From the NCBI GenBank assembly GCA_963555705.1, contig OY743189.1, forward strand, positions 3,303,501 through 3,367,500: a DNA stretch of 64,000 nucleotides, given 5' to 3'. Below, piece by piece: positions 5,395 through 51,379 of this stretch. The DNA comes from Ligustrum vulgare (taxonomy: Eukaryota; Streptophyta; Magnoliopsida; Lamiales; Oleaceae). Within the stretch, counting starts at the first letter, position 1. Each line of letters opens with the position of its first letter. Under the pieces are notes generated by a model, which was given only the letters and a program-made list of their open reading frames with translations, was not told the DNA's origin and ran no database searches. The position numbers and the translations under genes are program-made.

Positions 5395-5704
5395 ACTTTA
5401 TTCAGCATTGTAAAATACAACTTTTATTCTTGAGATTAATGATATTGAAGGTGAGATATTCCCTTATATTTTCTTCGTGTTCTCGTCGAACAAATTGAAC
5501 TTATCAAAGGATTTGACAACCTTTGTGGCGTTCCCCCTTTGTGGTTCTTATCTCCGCATCGTAACGGGTTTTGGGTTTAATATACCCTTAGTTCTTGCGT
5601 CGTGAGGTCGGGGTTGCATTGTTACCGTCTACTATCTTGGATTTTAGAGCTTTCCGGCGTTTAATTCCGCGTGTTCTTGGTGATCCCCATAACGGATCAC
5701 ATCA

Positions 5705-9630: not shown

Positions 9631-10740
9631 AAAGAAGGTAGAACTGATTTTTGAATGCCATAACTACTAAGAGGGAAAAAAGGTGAAGTTAGAAGTTATA
9701 GAGTTTGCAGACTATGCACTTGTGTGGTGGGATCAATTTGTGACGAGTAGGAGGAGGAACCGTGAAAGACCTATTGAGACCTGGAACGAGTTGAAGGGTT
9801 TGATGAGGAAAAGGTTTGTGCCCAACCATTACTATAGGGACTTGTACCAGAAACTCCAAACTCTATCTCAGGGTTCGAAGAGTGTAGTAGAATACAATAA
9901 AGAGATGAAGATTGCTATGATCCAAGCAAATATTGAGGAGGATCCGGAGGCCACAATGGCCAGGTTTTTGAGCGGTTTGAACAGAGACATTGCAAATGTT
10001 ATAGAACTGCAACATTATGTTGAACTAGAGGAGATGTTGCACATGGAGATGAAGGTGGAAAGGCAGCTGAAATGGAAAGGGACAGCAAAATACTCTTCGG
10101 GTTCTACTCCTTGGAAACCTACGTGGAGTGGAAGTAACAAAAATGAAGGAACTGCTCCAAAAGGGAAGTCAGAACCACCAAAAGCTCGAGAGGAATCTGC
10201 TAATAAAGGTAAACCCACTTCTGACTCTCAACCTCCTAGAAGTAGAGACATTAAGTGCTTTAGGTGTATGGGAATTGGGCACATTGCATCACAATGCATG
10301 CTGGACACATCCTGTTGGGTCGGCCATGGCAATATGACAGGAGAGTGGTACATGACGGGTATAAAAATAGATATAGTTTTACAAAGGATGGGAAAAGTAT
10401 CAGACTTATGCAGCTAACTCCACAACAAGTTTATGAAGATCAGTTGAAATTAAAGGGTGAAGAAGAGAAGACAAGGAGAGTTGGGACCCCGATCCCAGAA
10501 AAAGGAAAGCTAAGTGTTCAAAGGAGAGTTGGGACCACGATCCCAGAAAAAGGTGAGCTGATAGAAAAACAGAGAGTTGGGGGTTCCGCCTCAGAAAAAG
10601 GAGAGGGAGTGACGAGTGCCAGAAAAGAAAGAGGAGAGAAAACCAAAGTGAGCTTCCTTGCCAAAAAGAGTGAGATCAAAAGAGCTGCCCTTGACCACCA
10701 ATCAACGGTCTTACTAATGTACAAGGACTCCTTCCTCGCA
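9631..10740 (+). pseudogene. CRM-A gag-linker remnant
   Basis: Capsid-like region ([29 protein letters not shown]) followed by the zinc knuckle start [14 protein letters not shown]. The knuckle then joins, through a shared CAATGC, the end of the protease (GHILLG). The whole retropepsin active site is deleted and the frame is shifted. The basic KGEL/EKGE linker follows to LALSD, where it fuses to the LTR. A stop occurs in HNY*EGKK near 9669. Confidence 0.85.
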
Positions 10741-11567
10741 CTGAGTGACCCCACGAGTAAGGACCCGTTGCATGTACCAGTGGGACCAACAACAAGGCTG
10801 AGGGCTAAGAAGATCAAGCAAGCAATGCAGGGTTTTATGCAAGCTTGGGTGGATGAATATTCAAGTCCAAGGTCGAAGACTCCATTTTCAATGCATTACA
10901 AGATGGGAGATGTACCAAAACTGTTACAATGCATTTGGGTCAAAGAACAAGAAAAAAAGAAGTCAGAGGGCCTTTTACGACCGTAAGATCTGGAGTTACG
11001 GCCGTAACTTTGTTATCGCACGGCCGTAAATATCATTTCACGGCCGTAATTGAGTAGTGTAATTTTTAGTCAGTAGGTGACTTACGGCCGTAAGAATACA
11101 TGTCACGGCCGTAAGAGTTAAATCAGTTTTTGGACCCGAGGGTCAATTACGGCCGTAAGAACGAATGTTACGGCCGTAAAAATGCGCCGAGTTTTATTTT
11201 AAGTATTTTACGGCTAGGGTTATTTTGGACGCATTTTTTGGACTATATTAGGTTTTCTTTGTCATTGTAAACAACACAACTTTTATGATTAATGAGATTG
11301 CTTGAATTAGGTGAGTTTATGCATATTCTTCTTCGTTCTTGATTGAACCCCTTGAACTTATCGAAGGATTTGACAACCTTTGTGGCGTTAACCCCTTTAT
11401 GTTTCTTCATTCCGCATCTTAACGGGTCTTGGATTTGATACATCCTTGGTTCTTAAGTCGTGAGTGTCGGGTCATATTGTTATCGTCTAATAATCTGGAT
11501 TTGGAACTTTCCAAGTGTTTATACAATTTCCGCGAGATTCCGTGATTCCCCAACAAGAATCACATCA
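10741..11567 (+). repeat. 3' LTR of deleted CRM-A, first dozen bases missing
   Basis: Fused to the linker at AGTGACC, so the PPT and the LTR start are gone. The rest matches the 5' LTR and ends AATCACATCA. It has its own palindrome array (10976-11180). Confidence 0.85.
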
Positions 11568-13362: not shown

Positions 13363-14070
13363 TGATGTGATCCCGGGAGGGGGTCACGACGACCACGCGG
13401 AATGAACGCAGGGAAAGTTCCGAATTCAGGTTGGAACGGACGATAACACTACAACCCGAGCCTCACGACGCAAGAACCATGGGTATATTAAACCCAAGAC
13501 CCATTACGATGCGGAAACAAGAACCGTAATGGTTTGAACGCCACAAAGGATGCCCACGCCTTTGATAAGTCCGATTGTTTTGAATGCCACAAATATCCCA
13601 CAATATTTGATAAGTTCGAAGTTTGTTCAATTCCAGAACAATGTTGAGAAAACACTCAATATAATTTTCATTCATCAAAAGTATTCTGTTTTTACATTGA
13701 ATGGAAAAGCATATAAATAGGCAAAATAAAACCTAATCGCTAACTGACTCTGAATAGAATTCAAATTAAACTAGAATACTAAATTAGGAAAATAACCTAA
13801 AAACCAAAATTACCAAAATTGGAAAAAGAATTAAAAACCAATAAAGGAAATACAAATCAACTGCAATACTAAAAATCCTGAAAATCTGATTCCGCCGCTT
13901 ACGGCCGTAAAAGTCGGACTTCGGCCGTAAGTCCTTCTCTGATCAAAATGTCACCATATTAGTTACGGTCGTGAAGATTGATGTTACGACCATGAAATTC
14001 CATGTAGAATATTGTTGAATTGCCCGTGTCTTGATTTCTCCTTTTTTATCGCCTTTTCCGGATCATATCA
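13363..14070 (-). repeat. noa-C 3' LTR (708 bp), antisense
   Basis: Plus-strand ends TGATGTGATCCCGGG and GGATCATATCA (one C to T change). It contains the palindrome array near 13900-13990, an ATATAAATAGG TATA-like complement near 13711, and two R/U5 hairpins (13535-13620). Confidence 0.9.
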
Positions 14071-14451: not shown

Positions 14452-15248
14452 TCAAACTGTACCTCCTGGATCAAACGGAAAATTATGGACTCCGTGACAT
14501 GAATTCAATAGATGATGCTCCTCCAATTTGTAGACAAGAAGGTATTGAAACACGAGGGGAATTGACCAAGGTTGATGTAAATCAAAATTCCATTCACAAT
14601 AAACCTGCAAGAAAGATTTAAAAAAATTGGGGAGGGAAATGTTAGTTTCACGAGGTACAAAGTATGGATCCTTGTACTCATGATGAATTATTTGCAATTC
14701 ATTTTTCCCAACAACAAAATTCTGCTCTTCACCTCCTTCCTTCTTTGCAATTTCTTGCTCAACCCCTTCTATCTTTTTACTCCCAAACTCAACCAATTCT
14801 TCTAACTCCACATTCCCACGCCTAACCTCCTCTTCCAAATTTTTGGACTCTACCACCTCTTCTAATTCTTCATACCCAACTTCCAATTTTTCCTCCTCAA
14901 TTATTGGAATTTGATCACCTAACTCCACCTTTTCATCTCCTACCACAAAATTCGGGGTTTCTTCAACTACTTCTAATTCATGTTTCAAGTCTCCCTCCTT
15001 CTTTTCAACATCCATATCTTGAGACTCCAATTTTAAATCCCCTCCAATGTCACTTTCACCCTGTTGTAATTTAGCTTCATCCTCCCTTTCACTCTCCCTC
15101 TTTCTTAACTTAGCTTCTTTTCTAGCCTTCCGTTCATACCTCATCCTTTCCTCAAAAATTTCTGTTCGACTCTTCCAAAGCGCCCTCGCATTAATCTCTT
15201 CATCCCAATCAACTCCAATCCCAACCCTAGGTTTATGGTTACGCCTAT
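14452..15248 (-). CDS. noa-C Glu/Lys-rich ORF, C-terminal part
   Basis: Unknown function. It continues the ORF that begins at 25158 and is cut by the LARD at 15248. It reads KPRVGIGVDWDEE, then a long charged, probably helical stretch rich in Glu and Lys, then a more hydrophobic end (LPNFFKSFLQVYCEW) and a stop after FDPGGTV at 14452. Together with its N-terminal part it would be close to the intact 332-residue noa-E protein at 51949-52947. Confidence 0.7.
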
Positions 15249-15929
15249 TGTAGCGCCCCGAGTTCCGTATACCCGATTCACTACGTCATTTTCTGTCTAA
15301 ATTTTTCGAATAATAATTTTGCGGAAGAAATAATTGAAATTCATTTTTGGCAACATTAAATAAACTGTAATGGCCGATAAAATTGAAAACATTTATGAAA
15401 CCATTTGAAATAGTAAATCGAACCATTAATTTTGTAAAGAAATTGACAATGTCATAATTTCTCAAATAAATGAACTTCTCTAAATTATTCGATTGTTTGG
15501 AAAAATACGGAAATCATTAACGTCAAACTTTCAACCGCTTAACGATTATTGCCACCATCATTCATCGCTCGCCACCGTCTCCGAAATCTGCAAAACTGTT
15601 AAAAAGTAGGGTGAGTATTTCATGGGGGAAATACTCAGTAGACTCATCGCAAATTAATTTAATTTATAAGATGATTAAACACATAAATCCCGGCTCTTTA
15701 TAAAACGGGCATTGATAGAGCTTCTTTATAAAACTGCTCTTGATAAAACTCATATTGTGCATTACAGCACGGGACATATTTTGCAAATCATATGCTCTTT
15801 GAAAACATCTCTTTGAAAACAGCTCTTTGAAAACCATATACTTATAAAAACATTTTAATTATGCCAAGCATAATTTCTTTTGAAAGCATAACATAAGATA
15901 GGATTTAAATCCTCATAAACATACAAGAA

Positions 15930-16330
15930 CTTTACCGAACTTAGGTGGCAAGAATTCTTATGCAGTAAAATCATAATAACAGTAAAATCACAGTAACAGT
16001 AAGATCATAATAACATAGGATAAGATCGAAATCCTCATAAATATAAGAATTTTACCGAACTTAGGTGGCAAGAATTCTTATGTAGTAAAATCATAATAAC
16101 AGTAAGTATACCAAAACATAATTCATGAAATTCATAGGGATCATTTCCATCATAACATAAGATAGGATCGAAATCCTCATAAACATACGCGATAGAAATT
16201 TTACCGAACTTAGGTGGTAAATCCTCATAAACATATGGAAAGACAGGAATTTTACCGAACTTAGGTGCTAAATCCTCATAAACTTATGGAGACACAAGAA
16301 TTTTACCGAACTTAGGTGGTAAGAATTCTT
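15930..16330. repeat. Repeats around ACCGAACTTAGGTG in the LARD LTR
   Basis: Five copies of ACCGAACTTAGGTG start at 15934, 16054, 16203, 16254 and 16305. The last three are exactly 51 bp apart, each with a CCTCATAAAC block. The set recurs in the other LTR at about 22233-22633. Confidence 0.8.
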
Positions 16331-16639
16331 ATGTGCATAGCAATGATCCAAAACATATAAAACATTATCGTAAAAACATAGGGTATACTTACTTTTCATA
16401 AAAACATAAGGTATATTTACCTTTCATAAAACATACTTAATTTTCTTGAAAATTGACTTTCACAAGTCACATGACATTTATATGAAATCATAATTTAAAT
16501 CAATTAATAAGTGTGAGTCTACCTCAAATCCGACGAGTGCAAAGTTGAGCGGGAATGACTTCAATTTCTTTAAATTCTCCGTACGCTTCGTCTTAGCCAA
16601 TAAGTCACTTTAGTCTATCGAATATATAGTTCAAAATGA

Positions 16640-16930
16640 TAAATTATAATTTGAGGACTAAAATTGATGTTTTGAAAGTTGAGGGACTAAAATGAATACT
16701 TTTGAAAGTTGAGTCGGAAACTCAAAACAGTAGGGTTGAAATAATATATTTTAAAACAATAGGGGCTGATTAAAACTCATTTAAAACTTAAGGGCTGAAA
16801 TTGATAAGTTTAAAAGCTAAAAGGACTGAATTGCAAAACTTTTAAAGCTTGGGGACTGATTTGAAACAATTTAAAACTTCAGGGACTGAAATGATCACTT
16901 TTCAAACTTAGGGAGCTAATTTGCAAATTC
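16640..16930. repeat. Degenerate repeats of about 35 bp (GGGACTGAAATG type)
   Basis: At least seven imperfect copies of a unit with GGGACT(A/G)AAATG and TTTAAAACTT. The second LTR has the same run at about 22943-23233. Function unknown. Confidence 0.7.
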
Positions 16931-18711
16931 TGAAAATCATTATTTTAAAACATCAGATTTATCTTCTCTCTCTCACTTTACTGTCTCTCGACCTCACTCT
17001 CTCTTCAAAACCGGCGAAGGAGGTAGGCGATCTGGAGAGTAAGGAAGATGCGATTCGTCGGCGCACACCGGCGTAGGGTGCGGTGACTGGTGTCGGTCAG
17101 AGTAAGATTCAGATTGGAGGGCTTAGGTGCGAGATTGGCGCAGAATCAAAGTGCAACCGAAACTCAAATTTCGAACTTAGAGTTGTGATCTTACGGCGGT
17201 GATTGAGGTAAGTGTCGGGGTTCATCTATTACTGGGTTTTGGGTTTTGATTTGTGAGGAGCAGTCGTTGGCCTGTGATTGAGATTCTGCGTGACAGTGAT
17301 GATTGATGATGTTTGCTGGGTGTTTTGAAAATATGGAATTGAATTGGTGATCTGCAAATTGGTGGTGATGGAACTAATTCCGGTGGTGGTTTAACCTGTG
17401 GTAGCCAGTTATGCATTGAATTGGATGAAGCTGAAATGGAGGAAAACTGGGAGGAAGCTGGCCGGTTATGGAGGTTTTGATGTTGATTTGGCTGTGATTC
17501 ATTTGATAATGAGATGATGGTGATACCGGTGGTTGGTGGATTGATGTAGGTGAAATGGAGTAGGAATGAATTGTGTATTGATGCAGTGATGAATTTGATT
17601 AAGACAGATGTTGGTTTAGAGTTCAATCTGGGCAGGGTGATGGCTGGTGGTTGGACTGATGATGATGATGATCGATAATGGGTTGGTGGTGATGGAAGGC
17701 AGACGGTGGTGGTGCAAATGAGGACTGCAGTGGCAGGGTCATCATTGGTGGTATGATGCAAATTGGTTTGGGTGGTTGGAATTTGTAGGGGAGTTGATAC
17801 TGGAGTTGCTGAAACCATGGTTTGGTAGAGAGGTATAGGTGGTGGTTTGATTTCTGATGGTGATGAAGATGAAGATGATGAGTTTGGATGGCTGCAATGT
17901 TTGGTGATTCGGCAGTGGTAGTATTGGGGATTGTGGTTGGTACTGAGGTGGTGGTGTTTGCATATGAATGCTAAGTTGATAGCTGGAGATAGAGGTGAAT
18001 TTATTGTGTTTCTTGCATGTCGTGACTTGTACTGGTTAGGAATTAAAGAAGAAAGTAGTGGAGAATTTGGTTGGATGGGAATTAGGTGTAAAGTGTTAGA
18101 ACAAAAATAATTAGGTTTAGTGGAAGGAAAAGAAAATGTTTAGGGAATTTTGGTGATGGTTGTATAATGAGTGCAGACAGGTTGTGTGATGGAAATGAAG
18201 CCGTGGAGTTTGCATGTGGAATATTTGAGGGGATGGAATGATGGTGTTGGAGAATATTAGGTGTAAAGGTGGGGAAAAATATAAAAACGAGGGGTGTGAT
18301 TAGATTTAGGATAAATAGGCTTAATTTAGGATACTTAACTAAAATTGGACTAACTACGATTAAGGAATGAAATTAAAATTGATATATTTTGGACTTAAAA
18401 TAAATTTGAAAATAAATAAATATTGAGATAAAAATTGAATTACGTATTTGGACTTGAAATAATTTGAATAAGTAAAATTGAGATATTTTAATAAATTTGG
18501 AATTCAAAATGATTTTGAAAATAATACTTTGAATAAATAATTAAAATAACATAATTTTAGAAATTCGAATTTTAATTTAAAATCGAACAAATTCGATATT
18601 TCTTGACTTGGCTAGACGAATCCGTCGCGGCATTAATTTCAAAACAATAGCGACTCAATTTTCTAAATATTAAAATAATTATTTATTGTATAAAAATTCT
18701 GGGTCGCTATA

Positions 18712-21551
18712 ATCTTACCCCCTTAAAATAATTTCGTCCTCGAAATTAAACTTACTTAATCTTATGATTTCTGAATACTTAATCAGAATCTCTTCTTTCT
18801 CTTATGTAGCATCATCGCTACCATATTTAACCCAACCATATTTAACCCACTGGACTTTGACTAAATGCATCACTTTGTTTTCTCAAGAACATGGACTTTT
18901 CTATAGACATATGTGTCTACTCAAAAATTCTACTGAATCGTATGTGACTGAAAGTTCACTATTCTTTGAATTCCATTATTATGAACCAAAAACAACATAA
19001 CTTATTCATAGATGATCAACTTATTTCATAATCTCAATACATCATCACCTTCAATTATCATCATCATATCATTCCTTACAATTTCTATTGTACCTTTATA
19101 TTCAAATAACCTTACGTCCATCATCATTATCTCACATAATCCCAAACAACATCATGTCTCTTTACTAATTTCTGTAATTCCATAAAAAAATCTCTTCAAG
19201 TTTCCATAAATCTTTACTGATATATCAAACCATAATAATTTGTCATCTCTAAATTTCTTATCATCGAATATTCCAAAAATAATCAAAACAATTCCCAATC
19301 GTATGTAAAAATTTCATCATATCTTGTAGTATTCATGTAACATGTTACTTATCATCGTATCATGTGACCTCAGATATTCGTATATATCTCTAAAATTTCA
19401 ACAAATCTTTACTGACATATCATATCATAATAATTTTTCCTTTCTTCTTATCATCGAATATTCAAAAAAAAAAAAATAATCAAAGAATTACCTGAATATT
19501 CTCTTTACATAATATACCCAAACATATCAACATAGTATCATCAACTTATCTTTCCAATATTTGTAACTCAAAATTCAGTAAACAAATATCTTTCAAATAA
19601 CTAAGATTCTTTACTTAAATGTCACCACATTTCCTGCAAAGTATTTCTTTCACTTATACATACTTATGAATTCTGATTCAATACGGTCCTTATTTCTCTT
19701 TCACGTATTCCCGTATCATCTCACTATACCTTGATTATTATATCAAAAATATCAGTACCAAAATCTAATAAAATATTCCATATCTCCAATCTTATCATCA
19801 AATTTTCTTTTGTCGAGAAAAATAACAGCGCATTAACTCTTGTTCCCACTTTTCATTTTTCTATACTTTAAATCATACATCAAGTACTCGGTATCAAATA
19901 CTCATTCTAGCTGAGAGCTAAGATACTAACTTAAAACAGCATCACAAGGATCAGATATGTTATTCTCAAACTTAAGAAACTTTACTAATTTCTCAAATCT
20001 GAAATTCAAAATTAAAATTTTCTATTCTCCCAAACTTCAATTCATATCACACTTTATGAACAATACTCTGATTAATCTTATCATCATTAAATAAGACTTC
20101 TGTAAATCATATAGGATTCCTCATCATATTTGCTTAACCCAAAGATACAATCCCATAATTTAAAATCACACAACTGATCATCTCAGATTTTCCATTATTG
20201 TAGCCAAAATATTTACTCACTTCAAAAGTACAACCAATAATAATTAATCGAAACTGTATCACTAAATCTTTAAATAAACCCATATATTATGACTAAAAGT
20301 GAAAATTCTCAATCGTAGATAATATTTCACCATAATGCAATAAACCATCAAAATAAGATCATCGAACTCAATATTCACACGATTCTTCCCTGGATAACCA
20401 TAACATCTCTTAACCGTCTAGTCGTCATATCTATCACGTACCTTATACGTCAATCTGATCACTAATATAATATATCAATTTCTCAGACTAAAAAAAATCT
20501 TGGATTCTACCGTGATCCCTCTTCTGAACTCCATTCCAAAATAAGTCATCACTGTAAAATCTTATCCCTATTTTCCTCAAAATTCATATCCTTATAATAC
20601 TCTCCAATACAAGTGATCAATCCATTCCCAAGAATAATTAAGATTCTTCCCAATAATGCCATTATACTTGTCTTCACTCGTCTTTCAAAATATAACTTAT
20701 CATTTACTCAATCTTGCTTATGAACTTGCAATTCTAAACTCAATTCTCTTAGTGATTGCATACAATACTATGCTCTTATTTCCAAACGATAAAATTCTAG
20801 GCAGAGTCTCCTTTGTAATTTGAACTTATCCCAAACCATAAGTATACTTCATACTAACAATAACATATAACTCCATATTTAATCACAACGATCTAAAAAT
20901 ATTGAAAACGATTCCAACACTTCAATATCATCAAAAATATCCCATAATTCCATTCATAATTCCTCAACATAACAATTTTAAATCATATTTTTCAATATCA
21001 CAATATCACTTCCTTCCATACCTTAATTGGCTCAAAAGTTACTCATACTTATAAATATATGCCATAAATCATATTCCCAAAATTTATTCACAAAGCCAAA
21101 CTTCATAATAAATTTCTCTTCAACATAGAGGCATAATTCATTTACTCAACATAATATCCATTACTTAATTTTCAATAAAATCATATTGTTCCCATTATGC
21201 TCAACACTCGTTTTCTTTCTTAAAAAATTTCTCATAATCATACATTAAAGCATATAAGTTATGACAAAGCATAACAACATCATTATTTTCGAAGAAATAC
21301 ATTCTTATTTCTCATAAATCATAAGTATCCGGAATACTCTTCATTCTTTCTCATAAATCAATAAAATGAGTATTCGAAATACTGAAATAACTTTAAACAT
21401 TATAAACTTCTTTAACTCGGAGTTGGTGGAGCGAAATGATGGCAGTGGCAATCTTCATCAATAAAAATCTTATAATGAAAAATATTTCTTGAAAATTCTT
21501 TTTGAAAATTTTTCCAGTCTACAGAAACGCAGACTAGCTCTGATACCAACT
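18712..21551 (-). other. LARD internal region, non-coding
   Basis: 2,840 bp, very AT-rich with many ATCAT and TCATAA runs and no ORF above about 80 codons on either strand. The PPT complement lies at the left end (18713-18725) and the PBS complement (GCTCTGATACCAA) at 21537-21549. I see no gag, RT or cellular gene in it. Confidence 0.85.
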
Positions 21552-24500
21552 TGTAGCGCCCCGAGTTCCGTATACCCGATTCACTACGTCATTTTCTGTC
21601 TAAATTTTTCGAATAATAATTTTGCGGAAGAAATAATTGAAATTCATTTTTGGCAACATTAAATAAACTGTAATGGCCGATAAAATTGAAAACATTTATG
21701 AAACCATTTGAAATAGTAAATCGAACCATTAATTTTGTAAAGAAATTGACAATGTCATAATTTCTCAAATAAATGAACTTCTCTAAATTATTCGATTGTT
21801 TGGAAAAATACGGAAATCATTAACGTCAAACTTTCAACCGCTTAACGATTATTGCCACCATCATTCATCGCTCGCCACCGTCTCCGAAATCTGCAAAACT
21901 GTTAAAAAGTAGGGTGAGTATTTCATGGGGGAAATACTCAGTAGACTCATCGCAAATTAATTTAATTTATAAGATGATTAAACACATAAATCCCGGCTCT
22001 TTATAAAACGGGCATTGATAGAGCTTCTTTATAAAACTGCTCTTGATAAAACTCATATTGTGCATTACAGCACGGGACATATTTTGCAAATCATATGCTC
22101 TTTGAAAACATCTCTTTGAAAACAGCTCTTTGAAAACCATATACTTATAAAAACATTTTAATTATGCCAAGCATAATTTCTTTTGAAAGCATAACATAAG
22201 ATAGGATTTAAATCCTCATAAACATACAAGAACTTTACCGAACTTAGGTGGCAAGAATTCTTATGCAGTAAAATCATAATAACAGTAAAATCACAGTAAC
22301 AGTAAGATCATAATAACATAGGATAAGATCGAAATCCTCATAAATATAAGAATTTTACCGAACTTAGGTGGCAAGAATTCTTATGTAGTAAAATCATAAT
22401 AACAGTAAGTATACCAAAACATAATTCATGAAATTCATAGGGATCATTTCCATCATAACATAAGATAGGATCGAAATCCTCATAAACATACGCGACAGGA
22501 ATTTTACCGAACTTAGGTGGTAAATCCTCATAAACATATGGAAAGACAGGAATTTTACCGAACTTAGGTGCTAAATCCTCATAAACTTATGGAGACACAA
22601 GAATTTTACCGAACTTAGGTGGTAAGAATTCTTATGTGCATAGCAATGATCCAAAACATATAAAACATTATCGTAAAAACATAGGGTATACTTACTTTTC
22701 ATAAAAACATAAGGTATATTTACCTTTCATAAAACATACTTAATTTTCTTGAAAATTGACTTTCACAAGTCACATGACATTTATATGAAATCATAATTTA
22801 AATCAATTAATAAGTGTGAGTCTACCTCAAATCCGACGAGTGCAAAGTTGAGCGGGAATGACTTCAATTTCTTTAAATTCTCCGTACGCTTCGTCTTAGC
22901 CAATAAGTCACTTTAGTCTATCGAATATATAGTTCAAAATGATAAATTATAATTTGAGGACTAAAATTGATGTTTTGAAAGTTGAGGGACTAAAATGAAT
23001 ACTTTTGAAAGTTGAGTCGGAAACTCAAAACAGTAGGGTTGAAATAATATATTTTAAAACAATAGGGGCTGATTAAAACTCATTTAAAACTTAAGGGCTG
23101 AAATTGATAAGTTTAAAAGCTAAAAGGACTGAATTGCAAAACTTTTAAAGCTTGGGGACTGATTTGAAACAATTTAAAACTTCAGGGACTGAAATGATCA
23201 CTTTTCAAACTTAGGGGGCTAATTTGCAAATTCTGAAAATCATTATTTTAAAACATCAGATTTATCTTCTCTCTCTCACTTTACTGTCTCTCGACCTCAC
23301 TCTCTCTTCAAAACCGGCGAAGGAGGTAGGCGATCTGGAGAGTAAGGAAGATGCGATTCGCCGGCGCACACCGGCGTAGGGTGCGGTGACTGGTGTCGGT
23401 CAGAGTAAGATTCAGATTGGAGGGCTTAGGTGCGAGATTGGCGCAGAATCAAAGTGCAACCGAAACTCAAATTTCGAACTTAGAGTTGTGATCTTACGGC
23501 GGTGATTGAGGTAAGTGTCGGGGTTCATCTATTACTGGGTTTTGGGTTTTGATTTGTGAGGAGCAGTCGTTGGCCTGTGATTGAGATTCTGCGTGACAGT
23601 GATGATTGATGATGTTTGCTGGGTGTTTTGAAAATATGGAATTGAATTGGTGATCTGCAAATTGGTGGTGATGGAACTAATTCCGGTGGTGGTTTAACCT
23701 GTGGTAGCCAGTTATGCATTGAATTGGATGAAGCTGAAATGGAGGAAAACTGGGAGGAAGCTGGCCGGTTATGGAGGTTTTGATGTTGATTTGGCTGTGA
23801 TTCATTTGATAATGAGATGATGGTGATACCGGTGGTTGGTGGATTGATGTAGGTGAAATGGAGTAGGAATGAATTGTGTATTGATGCAGTGATGAATTTG
23901 ATTAAGACAGATGTTGGTTTAGAGTTCAATCTGGGCAGGGTGATGGCTGGTGGTTGGACTGATGATGATGATGATCGATAATGGGTTGGTGGTGATGGAA
24001 GGCAGACGGTGGTGGTGCAAATGAGGACTGCAGTGGCAGGGTCATCATTGGTGGTATGATGCAAATTGGTTTGGGTGGTTGGAATTTGTAGGGGAGTTGA
24101 TACTGGAGTTGCTGAAACCATGGTTTGGTAGAGAGGTATAGGTGGTGGTTTGATTTCTGATGGTGATGAAGATGAAGATGATGAGTTTGGATGGCTGCAA
24201 TGTTTGGTGATTCGGCAGTGGTAGTATTGGGGATTGTGGTTGGTACTGAGGTGGTGGTGTTTGCATATGAATGCTAAGTTGATAGCTGGAGATAGAGGTG
24301 AATTTATTGTGTTTCTTGCATGTCGTGACTTGTACTGGTTAGGAATTAAAGAAGAAAGTAGTGGAGAATTTGGTTGGAAGGGAATTAGGTGTAAAGTGTT
24401 AGAATAAAAATAATTAGGTTTAGTGGAAGGAAAAGAAAATGTTTAGGGAATTTTGGTGATGGTTGTATAATGAGTGCAGACAGGTTGTGTGATGGAAATG

Positions 24501-25014
24501 AAGCCGTGGAGTTTGCATGTGGAATATTTGAGGGGATGGAATGATGGTGTTGGAGAATATTAGGTGTAAAGGTGGGGAAAAATATAAAAACGAGGGGTGT
24601 GATTAGATTTAGGATAAATAGGCTTAATTTAGGATACTTAACTAAAATTGGACTAACTACGATTAAGGAATGAAATTAAAATTGATATATTTTGGACTTA
24701 AAATAAATTTGAAAATAAATAAATATTGAGATAAAAATTGAATTACGTATTTGGACTTGAAATAATTTGAATAAGTAAAATTGAGATATTTTAATAAATT
24801 TGGAATTCAAAATGATTTTGAAAATAATACTTTGAATAAATAATTAAAATAACATAATTTTAGAAATTCGAATTTTAATTTAAAATCGAACAAATTCGAT
24901 ATTTCTTGACTTGGCTAGACGAATCCGTCGCGGCATTAATTTCAAAACAATAGCGACTCAATTTTCTAAATATTAAAATAATTATTTATTGTATAAAAAT
25001 TCTGGGTCGCTATA
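21552..25014 (-). repeat. LARD 5' LTR (3,463 bp)
   Basis: Near-identical to 15249-18711. Differences seen: two near 22493, and one each near 23217, 23360, 24379 and 24405. Both LTRs start TATA rather than TGTA in element sense, so the unusual terminus belongs to the family rather than to one copy. Confidence 0.92.
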
Positions 25015-25699: not shown

Positions 25700-26408
25700 T
25701 GATGTGATCCTGGGAGGGGGTCACGATGACCACGCGGAATGAACGCCGGGAAAGTTCCGAATTCAGGTTGGAACGGACGATAACACTACAACCCGAGCCT
25801 CACGACGCAAGAACCACGGGTATATTAAACCCAAGACCCGTTACGATGCGGAAATAAGAACCGTAATGGTTTGAACGCCACAAAGGATGCCCACGCCTTT
25901 GATAAGTTCGATTGTTTTGAATGCCACAAATATCCCACAATATTTGATAAGTTCGAAGTTTGTTCAATTCCAGAACAATGTTGAGAAAACACTCAATATA
26001 ATTTTCATTCATCAAAAGTATTCTGTTTTTACATTGAATGGAAAAGCATATAAATAGGCAAAATAAAACCTAATCGCTAACTGACTCTGAATAGAATTCT
26101 AATTAAACTAGAATACTAAATTAGGAAAATAACCTAAAAACCAAAATTACCAAAATTGGAAAAAGAATTAAAAACCAATAAAGGAAATACAAATCAACTG
26201 CAATACTAAAAATCCTGAAAATCTGATTCCGCCGCTTACGGCCGTAAAAGTCGGACTTACGGCCGTAAGTCCTTCTCTGATCAAAATGTCACCATATTAG
26301 TTACGGTCGTGAAGATTGATGTTACGACCATGAAATTCCATGTAGAATATTGTTGAATTGCCCGTGTCTTGATTTCTCCTTTTTTATCGCCTTTTCCGGA
26401 TCACATCA
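25700..26408 (-). repeat. noa-C 5' LTR (709 bp), antisense
   Basis: Plus-strand ends TGATGTGATCCTGGG and GGATCACATCA, then target duplication GTTAT. It carries no extra 71-bp unit, although the internal region near the 3' LTR keeps two. Confidence 0.92.
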
Positions 26409-26413
26409 GTTAT

Positions 26414-26879
26414 TGTTTCCAATTAAATTAGGACTCTATTTTGATAGATTTTATGTATTCCCTAATTAGATTAGATTTTATTTAGTTTCCTAGTAGACTA
26501 GGATTTTTATTCTGGTTGCCTATATAAAGGCGTCTTCATTGTAATACAAGAATATAAGACTTTGATTATTGAATGAAATATATTGAGTGTTTTTACTCTC
26601 TAAAGGTGAGGATTCCCTTTAATTCGAACTTATCAAATGTTGTGAGATATTTGTGGCGTTCACCAAATTGAACTTATCAAGGATCTGGACATTCCTTGTG
26701 GCGTTCAAACCATTACGGTTCTTGTTTCCGCATCGTAATGGGTCTCGAGTTTAATATGCCCCATGTTCTTGCGTCGTGAGGCTCGGGTCGTATTGTTACC
26801 GTCCGTTCCAACCTGGATTCGGAACTTTCCTGGCGTTAATTCCGCGTGTTCGTCGTGACCCCCTCCCGGGATCACATCA
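26414..26879 (+). repeat. noa-D 5' LTR, second part
   Basis: Continues the LTR begun at 13013; total about 815 bp. A clear TATA box TATATAAA lies at 26521-26528. Two R/U5 hairpins at 26626-26661 and 26670-26706 have different stems. Ends CCCGGGATCACATCA. Confidence 0.9.
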
Positions 26880-27266
26880 TCTGGTATCAGAGCTGGACTC
26901 TGAATTCAGGTTTATTCTATCCCAGTTTGATTTTGTATTTTTATCATAGAGTCTTCATAAAATCATCCATATCTTGTTATTGGGTCTTTTTTTCTTTAGT
27001 TTTCTTTTCTTCGTGTTCTTCGTGCCAGTAAAAATTCCCATTATTTGATCCATACAAAATTCCATCAAAAATTCAATCTTGTTTATTTTATTCGATTCTT
27101 GTCCAAATCCTGTCCCGTTTGTTTTGCCGTGTTTGTTGTCGAGTTTCGGATTTATAAAAAAAAAAAAATTCTAAATTTTTTTTAATTTTTTTTTATTTCA
27201 TCCATTATTCAAAAAAAAAAAAAAGTGGAAATATTCGAAAATTCAAGGACCACTTCCTTGAGTTTC
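26880..27266 (+). other. noa-D leader with PBS
   Basis: PBS TGGTATCAGAGC at 26882-26893, complementary to initiator tRNA-Met as known for plant LTR elements. The rest is T/A-rich leader without an ORF. Ends with the GTTTC copy (27262-27266) of the target duplication of the solo LTR. Confidence 0.85.
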
Positions 27267-28211
27267 TGATGAGAACCCGGGAGGGGTTCCTCGTCTAGCT
27301 CGCGAAATTAACGCTTGGAAAGTTCCGAATCCAGGTTGGAACGGACGATAACAATGCAACCCGGACCTCACGACGTAAGAACCAGGGGTATATTAAACCC
27401 GAGACCCGTTACGATACGGAGATAAGAACCACAAAGGGGGAACGCCACAAGGAATGTCCAGATCCTTGATAAGTTCAATTGTTTTGAACGCCACAAGATT
27501 TGAATCTTGATAAGTTCGATATTTAAAGGGAAAATCCTCACCTTTAGAGAGAGTAAAAACAATCAATAATTTTATTCATCAAAAGTATTCTGTTTTTACA
27601 TTTAATGGAAAAGCATATAAATAGGCAAAATAAACCCTAGTCGCTAACTGACTCTGAATAGAATTCTAATTATGCTAAAATAGCTAAAACAACTAAAATA
27701 ACCAAAATAAATTAGAACTAAAGAAAACCCTAACCGCCTAATTAATTCAAAACTGTGGCGCCTAAGTTACGGCCGTGACTTATGAGTTTATGGCCGTAAC
27801 TAAGCTACGGATTAAAAATTAAAAACATATGTTACGGCCGTGAAAATTTTATTTACGGCCGTAAGTGACATTCTGAACAAAATAATAAAAGTTACAAAAC
27901 TCTGTTTACGGCCGTGAGTATTTGGATTACGGCCGTGAATACTTCCACTTCATTTACGGCCGTGAGATCATGCGTTACGGCCGTAATTGCCTTTCTGCAA
28001 AATTTCGTGATGTTGATGTTACGGTCGTAAAATGGGTGTTACGGCCGTAAGTCAGCTTCTGCCCAATTTTTCTGATCCTTTGACATTAATTGATCTGATT
28101 TGAATCTCGACTCGAGCCCAACATAAAACTTGTCCATTTTCCCATGTAGAATTTTGTTGAATTGCCCGTATCTTGATTTCTCATTTGTGACGCCTTTTCC
28201 GGATCACATCA
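27267..28211 (-). repeat. Solo LTR of noa-E type (945 bp)
   Basis: Antisense LTR with perfect 5-bp target duplication GTTTC (27262-27266, 28212-28216) and no internal sequence, so it is a solo LTR formed by LTR-LTR recombination. It carries at least nine palindrome cores (27760-28050) and two R/U5 hairpins of different stem classes (27450-27515). Confidence 0.93.
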
Positions 28212-30914: not shown

Positions 30915-31816
30915 TGATGTGATCCGATATGGGGATCACCAAGAGCACACGGAATTAAACGCCGGAAAGCTCTAAAATCCAAGATAGTAGACGGTAACAA
31001 TGCAACCCCGACCTCACGACGTAAGAACTATGGGTATATTAAACCCAAAACCAGTTACGATGAGGAGATAAGAACCACAAAAGGGGAACGCCACAAAGGT
31101 TGTAAAATCCTTTGATAAGTTCGAATTTGTACAACGAGAACAAGAAGAAAATTAAGGGAATATCTCACCTTTAATATCATTAATCTCAAAAATAAAAGTT
31201 GTTGTTTACAATGCTGAATAAAGCTATAAAAATAGGCTAACAAAATAAAGCAACTAAAAATAAATTATAATTCAACTAAAACTAAAACGCCTAACATTAT
31301 CCTAAATTTCGGTGCCTAAGTTACGGTCGTAACTTTTAAGTTTACGGCCGTAAGTGACTCAGGGTCTAAAAATCAAAACATATGTTACGGCCGAGACAAT
31401 GTCTTTTACGGTCGTAAGCGACTCTCTGAACAAAAAAAATAAAAACTACTAAACTTTATTTACAGCCGTGAGGATTTGTATTACGGCCGTAAGTCCTCTT
31501 CTGCATAATTTTGTGTTGATGATGTTACGGCCGTGAGATCATAGTTTACGGCCGTAATTTTTGGGCGTTACGGCCGTGAATCTGTTGTTTCCCAATTTCT
31601 TGTTGTTCCTTGATCCAAATTCATTGTAATAACTTTGGCTCATCTTCCACTTTGATATGCAACGTAAATGAGGTCTTTGCACTCGAGCACTCATCCATCC
31701 ACGCTTGCATTAATCCTTGCATTGCCTACTTGATTCTTTTGGCTCTTTGCCTCGTTATTGGTCCTACCGGCACGTGCAACGAGTCAACGCTCTTCGAGCC
31801 ACTCCGGAACTCATCA
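30915..31816 (-). repeat. CRM-B 5' LTR (902 bp), antisense
   Basis: Plus-strand start TGATGTGATCCGATATGG, end CCGGAACTCATCA. It contains the integrase-tail frame, palindromes 31315-31580 and the R/U5 hairpin near 31091-31127. It inserted into an antisense noa-D LTR that resumes at 31817. Confidence 0.9.
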
Positions 31817-32410
31817 GGGAAAGTTCCGAATTCAGGTTGGAACGGACTGTAACACTACGACCCGAGCCTCACGACGCAAGAACCCGGAGCATATTAAACC
31901 CGAGACCCGTTACGATGCGGAAACAAGAACCGTAATGGTTTGAATGCCCCAAGGAATGTTCAGATCCTTGATAAGTTCAATTTGTTGAACGCCACAAATA
32001 TTACACTATATTTGATAAGTTCGCATTAAAGGGAATCCTCACCTTTAGAAAGTAAAAACACTGAATATGTTTTATTCAATAATCAAAGTCTGTTTTCGAA
32101 TTACAATCAAGATGCCTTTATATAGGCAACCAGAATAAAGATCCTAGTCTACTTAGGAAACTAAATAAAATCAAATCTAATTAGGGAATAGATAAAATCT
32201 ATCAAAATAGACTCATAATTTAATTGGAAACAATAACGAAAACAAAGTAAATCTAATCCTATAATTACGGAAATAAAAATCCGCATGATTTGCATTAATT
32301 TAGACTTACGGCCGTAATTGTTAAAATCTTGAAACTCTTTAATTTCCACCTGAGGATGACTTACGGTCGTGTGACAAGCTAGCTTACGGCCGTAAATACG
32401 GTTCCGATCC
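31817..32410 (-). repeat. noa-D 3' LTR, antisense, first part
   Basis: U5, R and part of U3 of a noa-D LTR lacking its outer 45-50 bp. It breaks off at GATCCATTTT; the missing LTR start continues with the same bases at 54795-54901. R/U5 hairpins at about 31940-32015 show a CAAATAT/ATATTTG stem. Confidence 0.85.
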
Positions 32411-32701
32411 ATTTTTACTTTGTTTTTATTATTGTTTCCAATTAAATTAGGACTCTATTTTGATAGGTTTTATCTATTCCCTAATTAGATTAGATTTTAT
32501 TTAGTTTCCTAAGTAGACTAGGATCTTTATTCTGGTTGCATATATAAAGGCGTCTTCATTGTAATAAAAGGGAAAGACTTTGATTATTGAATAAAATTAT
32601 TGAGCGTTTTTACTCTCTCTAAAGGTGAGGATTTTCCCTTTAAACAACAACCTTATCAAGATTCAAATCTTGTGGCGTTCAACAATTGAACTTATCAAAG
32701 G
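32411..32701 (+). repeat. Sense noa-D LTR segment inserted in the antisense LTR (left piece)
   Basis: Begins mid-LTR at TACTTTGTTTTT, has TATA box ATATATAAAG near 32540, and is split by noa-E (TSD AAAGG at 32697-32701 and 54460-54464). Continues at 54465 with U5, a mutated PBS and leader. Together with the antisense LTR it forms a large inverted repeat. Confidence 0.8.
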
Positions 32702-33012: not shown

Positions 33013-33973
33013 TGATGTGATCCGGAAAAGAAGCTAACAATGTTATGATTCGGGACGAATCATCTTAAAGGAAGAGGGGATGATGTGATCCGGAAAAGGC
33101 GTCAAAAATGAGAAATCAAGATACGGGAAATTCAACAATATTCTACATGGAAAAATGAACAAGTTTCGTGTTGGGTTCGAGTCGAGATTCAAATCAAGTC
33201 AACGGATCAGAAAATCAGAAAATTGGGCAGAAGATGCGTTACGGCCGTAACATTGTTTCTCACGGCCGTAACTTATGAATTTCACGGCCGCATCACATTC
33301 CTCACGGCCGTAAATGAAAATTGGTATTTTTGTTCAGAATGAGATTTACGGCCGTAACATCAATCTTCACGGCCGTAACTAATATTGAGACATTTTGATC
33401 AGAGAAGGACATACGGCTGTAAGTCCGACTTTTACGGCCGTAATTGACGCAAATCAGATTTTTCGGGATTTTAGTATTTCAGTTGATTTGTGTTTCCTTT
33501 ATTGGTTTTTAATTCTTTTTCCAATTTTGGTAATTTTTGTTATTTTAGTATTTTAGGTATTTTAGCCTAATTAGAATTCTATTCAGAGTCAGTTAGCGAT
33601 TAGGGTTTATTTTGCCTATTTATATGCTTTTCCATTCAATGTAAAAAACAGAATACTTTTGATGAATGAAAAGTATATTGAGTGTTTTCTCAACATTGTT
33701 CTGGAATTGAACAAACTTCGAACTTATCAAATATTGTGGGATATTTGTGGTGTTCAACAAATCGAACTTATCAAAGGCGTGGGCATCCTTTGTGGCGTTC
33801 AAACCATAACGGTTCTTGTTTCCGCATCGTAACGGGTCTTGGGTTTAATATACCCATGGTTCTTGCGTCGTGAGGCTCGGGTTGTAGTGTTATCGTCCGT
33901 TCCAACCTGAATTCGGAACTTTCCCGGCGTTCATTCCGCGTGTTCGTCGTGACCCCCTCCCGGGATCACATCA
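33013..33973 (+). repeat. Solo noa-C LTR with an extra start unit
   Basis: Target duplication ACCAC (33008-33012, 33974-33978). The left end is a 68-bp unit (LTR start, hairpin, PPT), followed by a second LTR start at 33081; the right end is CCCGGGATCACATCA. It contains palindromes 33240-33450 and two R/U5 hairpins (33718-33800). Confidence 0.9.
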
Positions 33974-34918: not shown

Positions 34919-35859
34919 TGATGTGATCCGATACGAGGATCACCAAGAACAGGCAGAATTAAATGCCGGAAAGCTCTAAAATCCAAGATAGTAGACGGTA
35001 ACAATGCAACCCCGACCTCACGACGCAAGAACTATGAGTATATTAAACCCAAAACCCGTTACGATGCGGAGATAAGAACCACAAAGGGGGAACGCCACAA
35101 AGGTTGTCAAATCCTTTGATAAGTTCAATTTGTTCGACGAGAACACGAAGAAATTAAGGGAATATCTCACCTTCAGTATCATTAATCTCAAGAATAATAG
35201 TTGTTGTTTACAATGCTGAATAAAGCCATATATATAGGCTAACAAAATAAAGAAACCTAAATAAACAAGAATTGCAAATAAACTAAACGCTGAAACTAGG
35301 TTAAAAATACGCCACCTAATTTACGGCCGTAACTTTTAATTTTACGGCCGTAAGTGACTTACGGACTAAAAAGCAAAACACATGTTACGGACGTGACAAA
35401 TTTATATACGGCCGTAATCGACTCTCTGAATAAAAATATAAAAACTACTAAACTTTATTTACGGCCGTGAGGATGTCCTTTACGGCCGTGAGTCCTCTTT
35501 TGCATAATTTTGTCTTGATAATGTTACGGCCGTGAGATCATGGTTTACGGCCGTGACTGCCTTTCTGCACAAATTTAGCCAAGATGATTTTACGGCCGTG
35601 AAAGAGGTGTTACGGCCGTGATTCTACTTCAGCCTTATTTTCTTGTTCTTCTTTGATCCAAATGCATTGTAATAACTTTGGCTCTTCTTCCACTTTGTTA
35701 TGCAACGTAAACGAGGTCTTTGCACTCGAACACTCATCCATCCACGCTTGCATGAATCCTTGCATTGTCTGCTTGATTCTTTTGGCTCTTTGCCTCATTA
35801 TTGGTCCTACGGGCACGTGCAACGGGTCAACGTTCGTCGAGCCACTCCAGAACTCATCA
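34919..35859 (-). repeat. CRM-B LTR shared by two array units (941 bp)
   Basis: Has a leader/PBS on its left and a PPT plus pol on its right (PPT complement TCCCCTCCCTG, 35860-35870). It is thus the 3' LTR of one unit and the 5' LTR of the next, as produced by unequal recombination between LTRs. Palindromes 35325-35620. Confidence 0.88.
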
Positions 35860-38556: not shown

Positions 38557-39353
38557 TGATGTGATCCGATACGGGGATCACCAAGAACAGGCTGAATTAA
38601 ACGCCGGAAAGCTCTAAAATCCAAGATAGTAGACGGTAACAATGCAACCCTGACCTCACGACGCAAGAACTATGAGTATATTAAACCCAAAACTCGTTAC
38701 GATGCGGAGATAAGAACCACAAAGGGGGAACGCCACAAAGGTTGTCAAATCCTTTGATAAGTTCAATTTGTTCGACGAGAACACGAAGAAATTAAGGGAA
38801 TATCTCACCTTCAACATCATTAATCTCAAGAATAATAGTTTTTGTTTACAATGCTGAATAAAGCCATATATATAGGCTAACAAAATAAAGAAACCTAAAT
38901 AAACTAGAATGGCAAATAAACTAAACGCTGAAACTAGGTTAAAAATACGCCGCCTAATTTACGGCTGTAACTTTTAATTTTACGGCCGTAAGTGACTTAC
39001 GGACTAAAAAGCAAAACACATGTTACGGACGTGACAAATTTATATACGGCCGTAATCGACTCTCTGAATAAAAATATAAAAACTACTAAACTTTATTTAC
39101 GGCCGTGAGGATGTCCTTTACGGCCGTAATCCTCTTCTGCATAATTTTGTTCTTCTTTGATCCAAATGCATTGTTATAACTTTGCACTTTGTTATGCAAC
39201 GTAAACGAGGTCTTTGCACTCGAACACTCATCCATCCACGCTTGCATGAATCCTTGCATTGTCTGCTTGATTCTTTTGGCTCTTTGCCTCGATATTGGTA
39301 CTACGGGCACGTACAACGGGTCAACGTTCGTCGAGCCACTCCGGAACTCATCA
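38557..39353 (-). repeat. CRM-B 5' LTR of the array (797 bp)
   Basis: Ends CCGGAACTCATCA. It lacks about 130 bp of the palindrome region and a further short piece compared with 34919-35859, and keeps only about six palindromes. Right flank is noa-E LTR. Confidence 0.85.
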
Positions 39354-39690: not shown

Positions 39691-40448
39691 TGATGTGATT
39701 CTTGTTGGGGAATCACGGGATCTCTCGAAAATTGAATTAAACATTTGGAAATTTCAAATCCAGATTAATTGACGATAACAATATGACCCGACACTCACGA
39801 CTCAAGAACCAAGGATGTATCAAATCCAAGACCTGTTAAGATGCGGAATGAAGAACCATAAAGGGGTGAACGCCACAAAGGTTCTCAAATCCTTTAATAA
39901 GTTCAAGGGGTTCAATCAAGAACGAAGAAGAATAGGGATAAACTCACCTAATTCAAGCAATCTCATTAATCATCAAAGTTATCTCGTTTACAATGACAAA
40001 GAAAAGCTAATATAGTCCAAAAACGCGTCCAAAATAACCCTAGCCGCAAAATACCAAAAATAAGACGCGACGCATTTTTACGGCAGTGAAAATCTACCTT
40101 ACGGCCATAATTTACCCTCGGGTCCAAAACTGATTTTAACTCTTACGGCCGTGACATTGGTTCTTAAGGCCGTAAGACACCTTCTGAATAAAAAAACTGC
40201 CTAATTCCTTACGGCCGTGAATTGGTTGTTACGGCCGTGCGATAGCAAAGTTACGGCCGTAACTCCAGACCTTACGGCCGTAAATTGTCTTCTGAATTCT
40301 TTTCTTCTTGTTCTTTGACCCAAATGCCTTGTAACGGTTTTGGCGCATCTCCCATATTGTCATGCATTAAAATTGGAGTCTTTGACCATGCATTTGAGTA
40401 TTCATCCACCCAAGCTTCCATAAACCCCTGCATTGCTTGCTTGATCTT
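39691..40448 (-). repeat. CRM-A 3' LTR, antisense, lacking its start
   Basis: Starts TGATGTGATTCTTG on the plus strand. Breaks off in the integrase-tail region at GATCTT, joined to the gag-pol linker. Palindromes 40080-40285. Confidence 0.87.
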
Positions 40449-42555: not shown

Positions 42556-43218
42556 TGATGAGTACCTGAGTGACCATACGAGTAAGGACCCGTTGCATGT
42601 ACCAGTGGGACCAATAACGAGACTGAGGGCTAAGAAGATCAAGGAAGCAATGCAGGGGTTTATGCAAGCTTGGGTGGATGAATATTCAAATGCATGGTCA
42701 AAGACTCCATTTTCAATACATGACAATATGGGAGATGCGCCAAAACCATTACAAGGCATTTGGGTCAAAGAACAAGGAAGAAATGGATCAGAAGGCCTTT
42801 TACGGCCGTAAGTGCTGAAATTACGGCCGTAACTTTGATATCACAATTTTGGGCGTAATAAAATTATTCACGGCCGTAAAACACTTTTTACAGCCGTAAA
42901 CACATATGTTACGGCCGTAACAATTGCGCGTCTTTTTTAGGGTTTACGCGGCTTGGACGCGTTTTTAGGCCTATTTATCTTGTCTTTGTCATTGTAAAGA
43001 GACAACTTTGATGCTTAATGAAATTGCTTGAACTAGGTGAGTTATTCCCTATTCTTCTTCGTTCTTGATTGAACCCCTTGAACTTATCAAAGGATTTGAC
43101 AACCTTTGTGGCGTTCGCCCCTTTATATTGTTATCGTCAATTAATCTGGATTTGGAACTTTCCAAGTGTTGATTCAATTTCCGCGAGATCCCGTGATTCT
43201 CCAACAAGAATCGCATCA
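42556..43218 (+). repeat. CRM-A 5' LTR (663 bp, two deletions)
   Basis: TGATGAGTACC...CGCATCA. Compared with the 3' LTR it lacks 18 bp in the palindrome array (near 42851) and 74 bp in R/U5 (near 43133). TATA-like CTATTTAT at 42971-42978; R/U5 hairpin 43080-43116 with all pairs intact. Confidence 0.93.
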
Positions 43219-43232: not shown

Positions 43233-43704
43233 TTGGCTCTAAATCCAGGTTTTGATATAATTCTTGTTTTGTTTCATTTTCTTGTTTTTTTTTTCTTTAC
43301 TAGATCTCATTGTTCTTGGAAAATTCTGCACCGTTACGAAATTGGTCTTAGTTTCAATTCTTGTCGTTATTGTTGAAGTGCAAGAACAAGAACATCATTA
43401 CATAGTCAAGAAGACCTTTCTTGATACCTTTCAATTTTCCACATTCATAGTAGTTTTCGTCATCCATCAAATCTTCTTTTCATCTGTTGTGTCTTGCACC
43501 TTGGGTTAATTCCACAAGGACCAAGTCCGTGACTAGTTTGGTGGGTTCGTTGAGAACTTGAGAAAAGGGATAGAGAGGAAAAAGGCAGAGTGGTGAGATC
43601 AATAGAGGGAAAAAGCCGAATAGAGTGATACTCGAGTGCAAAACACTCGAGGATATTTTCTCTTGAAAATTATTTACATATTTTTTTCTTTTTGATCACT
43701 AACC
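43233..43704 (+). other. CRM-A leader
   Basis: Untranslated leader of about 470 bp with T/A tracts and no long ORF. Copies elsewhere in the window are deleted at varied points within it. Confidence 0.8.
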
Positions 43705-51374: not shown

Positions 51375-51379
51375 ACTTC

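Follow-up and report, generated by a model that had tools for sequence, protein, structure and literature searches.

A covarying UUAU/UGGC hairpin module in the R/U5 leader of plant LTR retrotransposons: a candidate Gag-binding packaging signal

The long terminal repeats (LTRs) of the window, by which we mean the whole 64,000-nucleotide stretch of Ligustrum vulgare DNA analysed here, carry a hairpin module of the form GAAC-UUAU-stem-loop-stem-UGGC-GUUC. It shares a single R/U5 leader with further covarying hairpins, and the covariation of its inner stem is strong. As far as sequence comparison can tell, the folded leader is common to autonomous and non-autonomous families. We give roughly even odds (a probability of about 0.5) to the reading that the genomic RNA of the retrotransposon forms this hairpin, which would be bound by Gag and so select genomes for packaging.

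The arrangement of the leader can be followed in the LTR copy on the plus strand at 26521-26893. A TATA-like box (26521-26527) is followed by AATGAAA (26572-26578), an A-rich motif to which we would assign a poly(A)-type role. Next come a hairpin H-1, GAGU-loop-ACUC (26585-26598), seen in the fold and by eye, with differing stems, in other families; the hairpin H0, UAAAGG-UGAGGAUUC-CCUUUA (26601-26621), recognised from arm pairing over families; and the two modules of the preliminary description, both of which are present. The first (M1, 26626-26661) has the inner stem CAAAUGU/AUAUUUG with one G.U, the second (M2, 26670-26706) has CAAGGA/UCCUUG, and each was identified by exact anchors, alignment and covariance model. 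Downstream of the modules lies a longer U5 hairpin, H2 (26711-26795), identified by covariation, with its core CCGCAT at 26728-26733 and TCGTG at 26774-26778. The LTR-terminal hairpin H3 (26855-26875), drawn by eye from alignment and folds and with one C.A mismatch in this copy, stands just before the primer site; the LTR ends in CACATCA at 26879, and the primer binding site TGGTATCAGAGC, which we take to be of the tRNA-Met type, occupies 26882-26893. The same order recurs in a set of 58 leaders drawn from 40 sources, namely the window and 39 further loci. Of the 58, 43 have a TATA-like box ahead of the first module, at a distance of 101-113 nt in 41 of them; an A-rich poly(A)-type motif, loosely defined and counted without a control, is found in 49; and the primer site follows downstream in 19, in 18 of them 131-209 nt past the last module and in one 43 nt past it. 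Since the modules lie between the TATA-like box and the primer site, they belong to the predicted transcript, the ends of which we infer, and the earlier placement of the structure within the LTR transcript is upheld. The modules may be wholly U5, because they are downstream of the A-rich poly(A)-type motif.

The module itself is real. In the window the pattern GAACTTAT-gap-TGGCGTTC, with its anchors exact, is matched 21 times, and 100 shuffles that preserve dinucleotides yield no match. A covariance model was built from 32 window copies, hand-picked from a substitutions-allowed search and aligned without structure (one of them lacks a stem base), and it finds 34 places in the window, two of them incomplete: one copy runs off the end of the window and another is interrupted at a junction. 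By eye, the flanks of the 34 places are LTR R/U5 sequence, partly truncated. The places other than M1 and M2 are given here with their strands; all were found by the covariance model, and they are also exact-anchor matches unless marked s, for a match with substitutions allowed, or described otherwise. Four LTR clades, A to D, can be distinguished in the window, all with the module and two of them with two modules. Clade A has 444-480 (minus), 9025-9061 (plus) and 11354-11390 (plus, s), the latter two with a G.U in the stem, 39868-39904 (minus) with a U.G in the stem, and 49305-49340 (minus), the stem of which is one base short. Clade B has 5497-5533 (plus), 6960-6996 (plus, s), 31086-31122 (minus), 35090-35126 (minus) and 38728-38764 (minus). 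In clade C the first and second modules are at 13582-13617 (s) and 13536-13572 (s) on the minus strand, at 25919-25954 (s) and 25873-25909 on the minus strand, and at 33720-33755 (s) and 33764-33800 on the plus strand. In clade D they are at 27486-27517 and 27440-27476 (minus), 53677-53708 (s) and 53631-53667 (minus), 55835-55866 and 55876-55912 (plus), and 59318-59349 (s) and 59359-59395 (plus). An LTR truncated downstream has its first module at 31987-32022 and its second at 31942-31978 (s), both on the minus strand, and an interrupted LTR has a first module at 32649-32680 (plus, s). The LTR upstream of the gag-pol frames, with a deletion in its U5, carries a module at 43080-43116 (plus), and the LTR downstream of these frames carries one at 48871-48907 (plus, s). 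A module cut on its 3' side is at 50732-50765 (minus; flanks by eye), and an LTR at the window edge has its second module at 63928-63964 (minus) and its first, cut by the edge and found by the model, at 63974-64000 (minus). The coordinates first reported for 5497-5533 and 43080-43116 (CAAAGG/CCTTTG) and for 53677-53708 on the minus strand (CAAGATT/AATCTTG) hold; the CAAATAT/ATATTTG copy is also present, with its limits corrected from 33718-33760 to 33720-33755.

The source genome (1.385 Gb) has 18,174 exact-anchor matches (8852 + 9322), and the reversed anchor pattern has none in the same 1.385 Gb. Families were surveyed in 40 stretches around matches of contig C1, taken from 100 listed of the 18,174. 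By pattern, 13 of the 58 leaders have one module, 24 have two and 21 have three in tandem; the module number of a leader, and with it the counts of 24 and 21, is a lower bound, as two leaders counted as having one (L141 and L147) have three by the covariance model. The internal loop is the most constant part: UUAU is invariant in 32/32 window copies, and across the 58 leaders UUAU is seen in 119/124 and UGGC in 110/124 modules, which were located by near-match to these very anchors. The outer GAAC/GTTC, on the other hand, had been described as constant, and this is contradicted by AAAC, GGAC, AACC, GAAT and GTTA in the window and by third modules elsewhere in the genome, which have GAAAC/GTTTC, with a longer outer helix, or AGAC/GTTT. 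The stem class is mostly specific to each tandem position in the 58 leaders, and the same 5' stem arm occurs twice in just 1 of 44 distinct tandem sets, where reassortment that ignores the ancestry of the positions gives 12.9 (minimum 4). A kissing loop that initiates dimers would call for a palindromic apical loop; by eye, the apical loops of the window modules (AUUUGACAA, CGUGGGCAU, UCUGGACAU and UGUGGG) are not palindromic, and in other families the short palindromes UCGCGA and CUCGAG are seen at the tip of some second modules. At G000:C1:54388171-54502723 a tandem array of LTR units repeats a single module variant about 20 times, with a spacing that is mostly about 2.29 kb.

The inner stem is held together by paired changes. 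Among the 21 distinct window copies, 99.2% of inner-stem cells and 92.9% of outer-stem cells are paired, and slid partners pair in 28-55% as against 96.7%. Three inner pairs have changed on both sides with the pairing kept, in agreement with the first observation that the inner stem changes on both sides together. Set against 500 shuffles, three of five measures beat all 500 in the window copies, while the number of pairs changed on both sides (381/500) and the further pair types (344/500) were not above the shuffles. A larger alignment, fitted to the model, holds 150 of 153 model matches, 99 of them distinct; L127, which overlaps L126, was left out. In the 99 distinct copies 96.6% of cells are paired, compared with 35-75% for slid partners, and 123 cells are changed on both sides, compared with 35.9 in the shuffles (0/500 as high); here too the number of pairs changed on both sides (406/500) and the further pair types (209/500) were not above the shuffles. 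The structure-free window alignment gives a picture like that of the model-fitted one. When the arms of 91 distinct modules were anchored on the conserved loops alone, pairs 4-6 formed in 243/269 cells (shuffled mean 169.6, maximum 186; slid 31-73%). At stem pair 4, the classes counted genome-wide are A-T 10,309, G-C 6,088, G.T 231, A.C 208 and pyrimidine-purine 0.

Relatedness was taken into account with a phylogenetic null, in which the LTR tree was built with the modules removed and the observed substitutions were moved randomly along the branches in 1000 simulations. The inner stem of the first module shows 4 kept double changes (null mean 0.24) and that of the second module 6 (null mean 0.63), neither number being reached in any of the 1000 simulations; the paired fraction of the second module is below the null maximum (3/1000 as high). 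With a false leader, window_10446, included to make 59 leaders, the first module had 8 double changes, likewise reached by 0/1000; this false leader was also excluded from the counts of motif positions, H0 and tandem sets. The last module, with 2 double changes in the 59 leaders that include the false one, is not significant (67/1000 as high), nor is the outer helix (98-230 of 1000). In a test confined to the window, the fold was taken from clade A alone and applied to clades B, C and D, where 7/8, 6/8 and 10/11 double changes preserve it (p <= 0.001); taking clade B, C or D as reference gives anything between a strong result and no significance (p as high as 0.36). In an R-scape-like per-pair test with a phylogenetic null, stem pair 4 ranks first in both the first and the second module, at E 2.1 and 0.074. 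The covariation claimed earlier holds as a whole in the larger alignment, but no single module pair reaches E 0.05. Taken together, the inner-stem covariation, the tree null and the position relative to the TATA-like box sustain the earlier view that a nucleic-acid structure is selected downstream of the promoter.

The leader's longer hairpin H2, with the core CCGCAT...UCGUG, also covaries. Its four pairs just outside the core are formed in 217/232 cells (94%) of 58 distinct rows; slid partners give 36-47%, and shuffles have a mean of 148 and a maximum of 167 cells. At outer pair 4, UA, CG, AU and GC all occur. The set is that of cores with a 3' anchor and so omits 36 CCGCAT-like places, and 6 of the 58 rows with false anchors were dropped before the tree and per-pair tests, leaving 52. 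The tree test used 16 pairs, chosen after the 58-row pairing result had been seen. They are formed in 94.6% of cells, where the null gives 70.4% and at most 84.5%, and 9 double changes have preserved the pairing, against a null mean of 1.47 and a maximum of 7 (0/1000). The signal is clearest in outer pairs 1-4 and weaker in the inner pairs (double changes, p 0.36) and in outer pairs 7-14 (types, p 0.20). In a mutual-information test with a phylogenetic null, pairs of H2 stand at ranks 2, 6, 7, 10 and 17 of 1225; no pair is significant among these few independent families, and the best, at E 2.9, lies outside the structure. Folded singly, some clade C copies, for example at 26710-26740, favour a stem of CCATTACGG with CCGcatCGTAATGG that competes with H2 and could possibly serve as a switch.

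Upstream of the modules, H0 is formed by stems as different as UAAAGG/CCUUUA, AUAGG/CCUAU, AAUGUG/CACAUU and UUGUUC/GAACAA around a UGGAUU-like loop. It could be anchored in 48 of the 58 leaders, and of the 100 positions in 20 distinct arm pairs 83 are paired, a number not reached in 5000 shuffles that ignore relatedness (maximum 81); slid partners pair at 43-72%. The string AGGTGAG, which resembles a splice donor, is found at the H0 loop of several families; a role as splice donor was rejected, because clade C and the families with a TGGATT loop lack the string and because it falls at the covarying H0 loop. H-1, the further hairpin in R, and H3 are visible by eye. Folding z-scores are modest in the four folds made (sense -1.8 and -2.3, antisense -2.5 and -2.6), and the sense strand does not fold better than the antisense.

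It is worth asking whether the structure acts as RNA or as a DNA cruciform, both of which had been put forward. The conserved G.U pairs of H2 point to RNA, because 48, 52 and 48 of the 58 rows keep U-G, U-G and G-U at H2 outer pairs 8, 9 and 10, and at pairs 2-3 UG is exchanged with Watson-Crick pairs with no A.C. Single changes from the Watson-Crick pairs of H2 give G.U 13 times, A.C 9 times and other combinations 15 times, so that the excess of G.U is slight. The wobble test at module pair 4 finds no RNA-specific asymmetry genome-wide (231 G.T, 208 A.C, the A.C class including the C1 array of about 20 near-identical units). A lack of G.U excess among single changes is expected if most copies decay neutrally.

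The window is made up of nested plant LTR retrotransposons, which are Ty3/gypsy where they are coding. The assignment comes from the element at 43696-48320, where Gag (PF03732), reverse transcriptase, RNase H and an integrase zinc-binding domain are encoded between LTR copies in two separate frames, 43696-47583 and 47568-48320. Gag, RT-RNase H, integrase, LTRs and a primer site are thus all represented, integrase by its zinc-binding domain only. The CCHC knuckle of Gag scores 20.6 bits, the Pfam cut-off being 20.8, and among 120 listed of 1180 Gag relatives are proteins of many angiosperms, including oak, beech, pecan, citrus, ginger and date palm. Other elements of the window look non-autonomous. 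One such stretch, 51371-54459, has an open reading frame (51949-53094, minus) with no Pfam domain, 88 columns of which align to the N-terminus of Gag (E 6e-13). At the DNA level this stretch matches the gag-pol element at greatest length in R/U5, with 174 columns at 78% identity, and the other matches between the two are 34-70 columns; further pairs of elements have U3 matches of 163 and 153 columns. The U3 parts are rich in ACGGCCGTAA repeats (640-714, 5022-5096, 6498-6568, 35459-35621, 48637-48711, 55444-55517 and others), the CGG-CCG core of which resembles the Sirevirus motifs upstream of the TATA box described in the accessible part of PMC2829016, whereas the coding elements here are Ty3/gypsy. 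Several families have a conserved peptide read from the LTR start, as if pol ran into the 3' LTR (10264-10986 and, on the minus strand, 49572-50144). Two direct repeats of 3.46 kb, 15248-18711 and 21551-25014, are 99.8% identical and might be long LTRs, still young, that belong to a different element. At 60787-62658 there are reading frames with aspartic-protease-like sequence (by eye) and reverse transcriptase (PF00078), presumably an integrated element of the caulimovirid type.

How would such a leader work? A conserved internal loop, a compensating stem and a copy number that varies together suggest a binding site for protein that is present in repeats. In the reading we prefer, one to three tandem hairpins in a folded R/U5 leader, between the predicted transcription start and the primer binding site, would present a recognised face made of the outer helix, the UUAU/UGGC internal loop and the first three pairs, CAA/UUG, which are near-constant. 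The distal stem would need only to pair and would therefore drift by compensatory change. Gag, with its CCHC knuckle, would bind the recognised face, would select and perhaps dimerise the genomic RNA, and would ready it for tRNA-primed reverse transcription. Non-autonomous families with no reverse transcriptase would keep the leader and so use the Gag and Pol of autonomous relatives. In a bolder version, which is tentative and to our mind doubtful, plant Ty3/gypsy elements would have a modular code for packaging that has so far gone undescribed. Each UUAU/UGGC hairpin would be one site for Gag, one to three of them in a row would form an address label, non-autonomous families would copy this label, and the distal stems of tandem units would necessarily be different, as identical tandem hairpins would misfold or be lost by template switching during reverse transcription. 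The distinct distal stems of tandem units, with a repeated arm in a single one of the 44 sets, agree with such a code.

Other roles have to be weighed against packaging. The leader could serve reverse transcription, by placing the primer site, pacing strong-stop synthesis or aiding the first strand transfer in the manner of retroviral U5-IR stems and R hairpins. The modules, H2 and H3 would indeed be template for the strong stop, lying as they do between the predicted start and the primer site, which H3 adjoins (by eye), and a self-primed retrotransposon requires a U5-IR-like structure, going by a title in the reference list of PMC4974528. A module number that varies from one to three, however, fits repeated protein sites better than a single geometry of reverse transcription, and we regard such a role as unlikely. 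Quite unlikely, in our estimate, is a control of expression through translation start or shunting, nuclear export, or the choice of poly(A) site between the 5' and 3' LTRs. The hairpin set directly downstream of the A-rich motif and the AGGTGAG string at H0 would suit it, but neither clade C nor the TGGATT-loop families have the string, which is better explained by the H0 loop.

Two further explanations would make no use of an RNA function of the element. If the symmetry acted in DNA, as palindromic factor sites, as cruciforms or through template-switch correction without selection, one might expect what is seen in part: G.T and A.C mismatches are about equal genome-wide, the single changes in H2 are split 13 to 9, the changes come as blocks, and CTTATC is, as we read it, the reverse of a GATAAG box. 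Such an origin is nonetheless very improbable in view of the wobble pairs kept and exchanged in H2, the recurrent wobble pairs in modules (CAAGAG/TTCTTG; CAAATATTC/GAGTATTTG) and the constant position relative to the promoter and primer motifs. The least probable of these readings is that host small-RNA silencing has shaped the hairpins, as dicer substrates, decoys or means of evasion. Many short hairpins in very abundant repeats could be so understood, yet conservation falls on the internal loop and the lower helix, and silencing gives no reason to expect this.

That retroelements can have structured leaders is already known, and the UUAU/UGGC module is without a description in the literature searched. 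Small hairpins are bound by Gag or NC in some retroviruses. The retroviral 5' leader likewise has a row of hairpins between the cap site and gag, several of them near the primer site, and in the elements studied here conserved hairpins stand between the predicted start site and gag. The differences are that the hairpins here are inside the LTR and vary in number between families; we know of no retroviral leader that shares the sequence and internal loop of the module.

Among the retrotransposons, the TIPIRT domain of Ty1 and the 5' cis region of Ty1 and Ty3 are similar in being 5' RNA with functions in translation, packaging and priming (PMC5454406 and PMC4974528, accessible parts). According to the same parts of PMC4974528, the minimal cis region of Ty1 is 380 nt at the 5' end, the packaging sequences of Ty1 and Ty3 are not precisely defined and the RNA structure of Ty3 is called uncharacterised; the Ty1 model differs in resting on probing and in having a pseudoknot and kissing loops, and nothing like the UUAU/UGGC module appears in that text for either element. 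A parallel in biology is found in barley, where the non-autonomous BARE2 has conserved dimerisation and packaging signals and is packaged in BARE1 particles, although these elements are of the Ty1/copia lineage (PMC3735527, in the portion available). The stretch 51371-54459, its ends taken provisionally, has a partial Gag-like reading frame and an R/U5 in common with the gag-pol element, and may fit a BARE2-like pattern. The Sireviruses share symmetrical conserved motifs of variable copy number in the non-coding parts of divergent plant elements, but there the motifs lie upstream of the TATA box or in the PPT inverted repeat, and the elements are again Ty1/copia (from the accessible part of PMC2829016). 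The accessible part of the work on models of conserved LTR structure has a table of models with no plant Ty3/gypsy LTR and no such module (PMC3601003). Retrozymes, as the available part of PMC4918200 has it, are plant LTR elements with structured RNA in their repeats; that RNA is a hammerhead ribozyme, and in this window there is no hammerhead or other Rfam match, for which reason a retrozyme was rejected.

No known motif came up for the module in the searches made, in line with the first impression. Rfam gives no match at gathering score on the whole window and none up to E 5 on 26500-26960, and a resemblance to the SAM-I riboswitch (CUUAUCAAGAG) was dropped for want of an Rfam match in the window. 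No description of the module was found among the matches listed in the literature searched, the scope of which took in few subscription papers, nor in the accessible parts of PMC3601003, PMC4974528, PMC3735527, PMC2829016 and PMC11656987. The strict pattern had 0 matches in viral contigs and 0 in the genome contigs searched, and the loose-pattern matches in viral contigs (at least 120 stretches) were judged to be chance for 16 fixed bases. A cross-species search by way of chance reading frames over the leader brought no candidates in the collections searched, none of which was one of plant DNA.

In large plant genomes the share of LTR retrotransposons can exceed 80% (PMC3735527, accessible part). 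Many plant LTR retrotransposons are non-autonomous, and the RNA signals that choose genomes for packaging are hardly known. A compact, countable and covarying hairpin in thousands of copies is a testable candidate for such a signal; its covariance model can be used to seek elements of this sort in other plants, and the module opens to study the means by which non-autonomous families exploit their autonomous counterparts.
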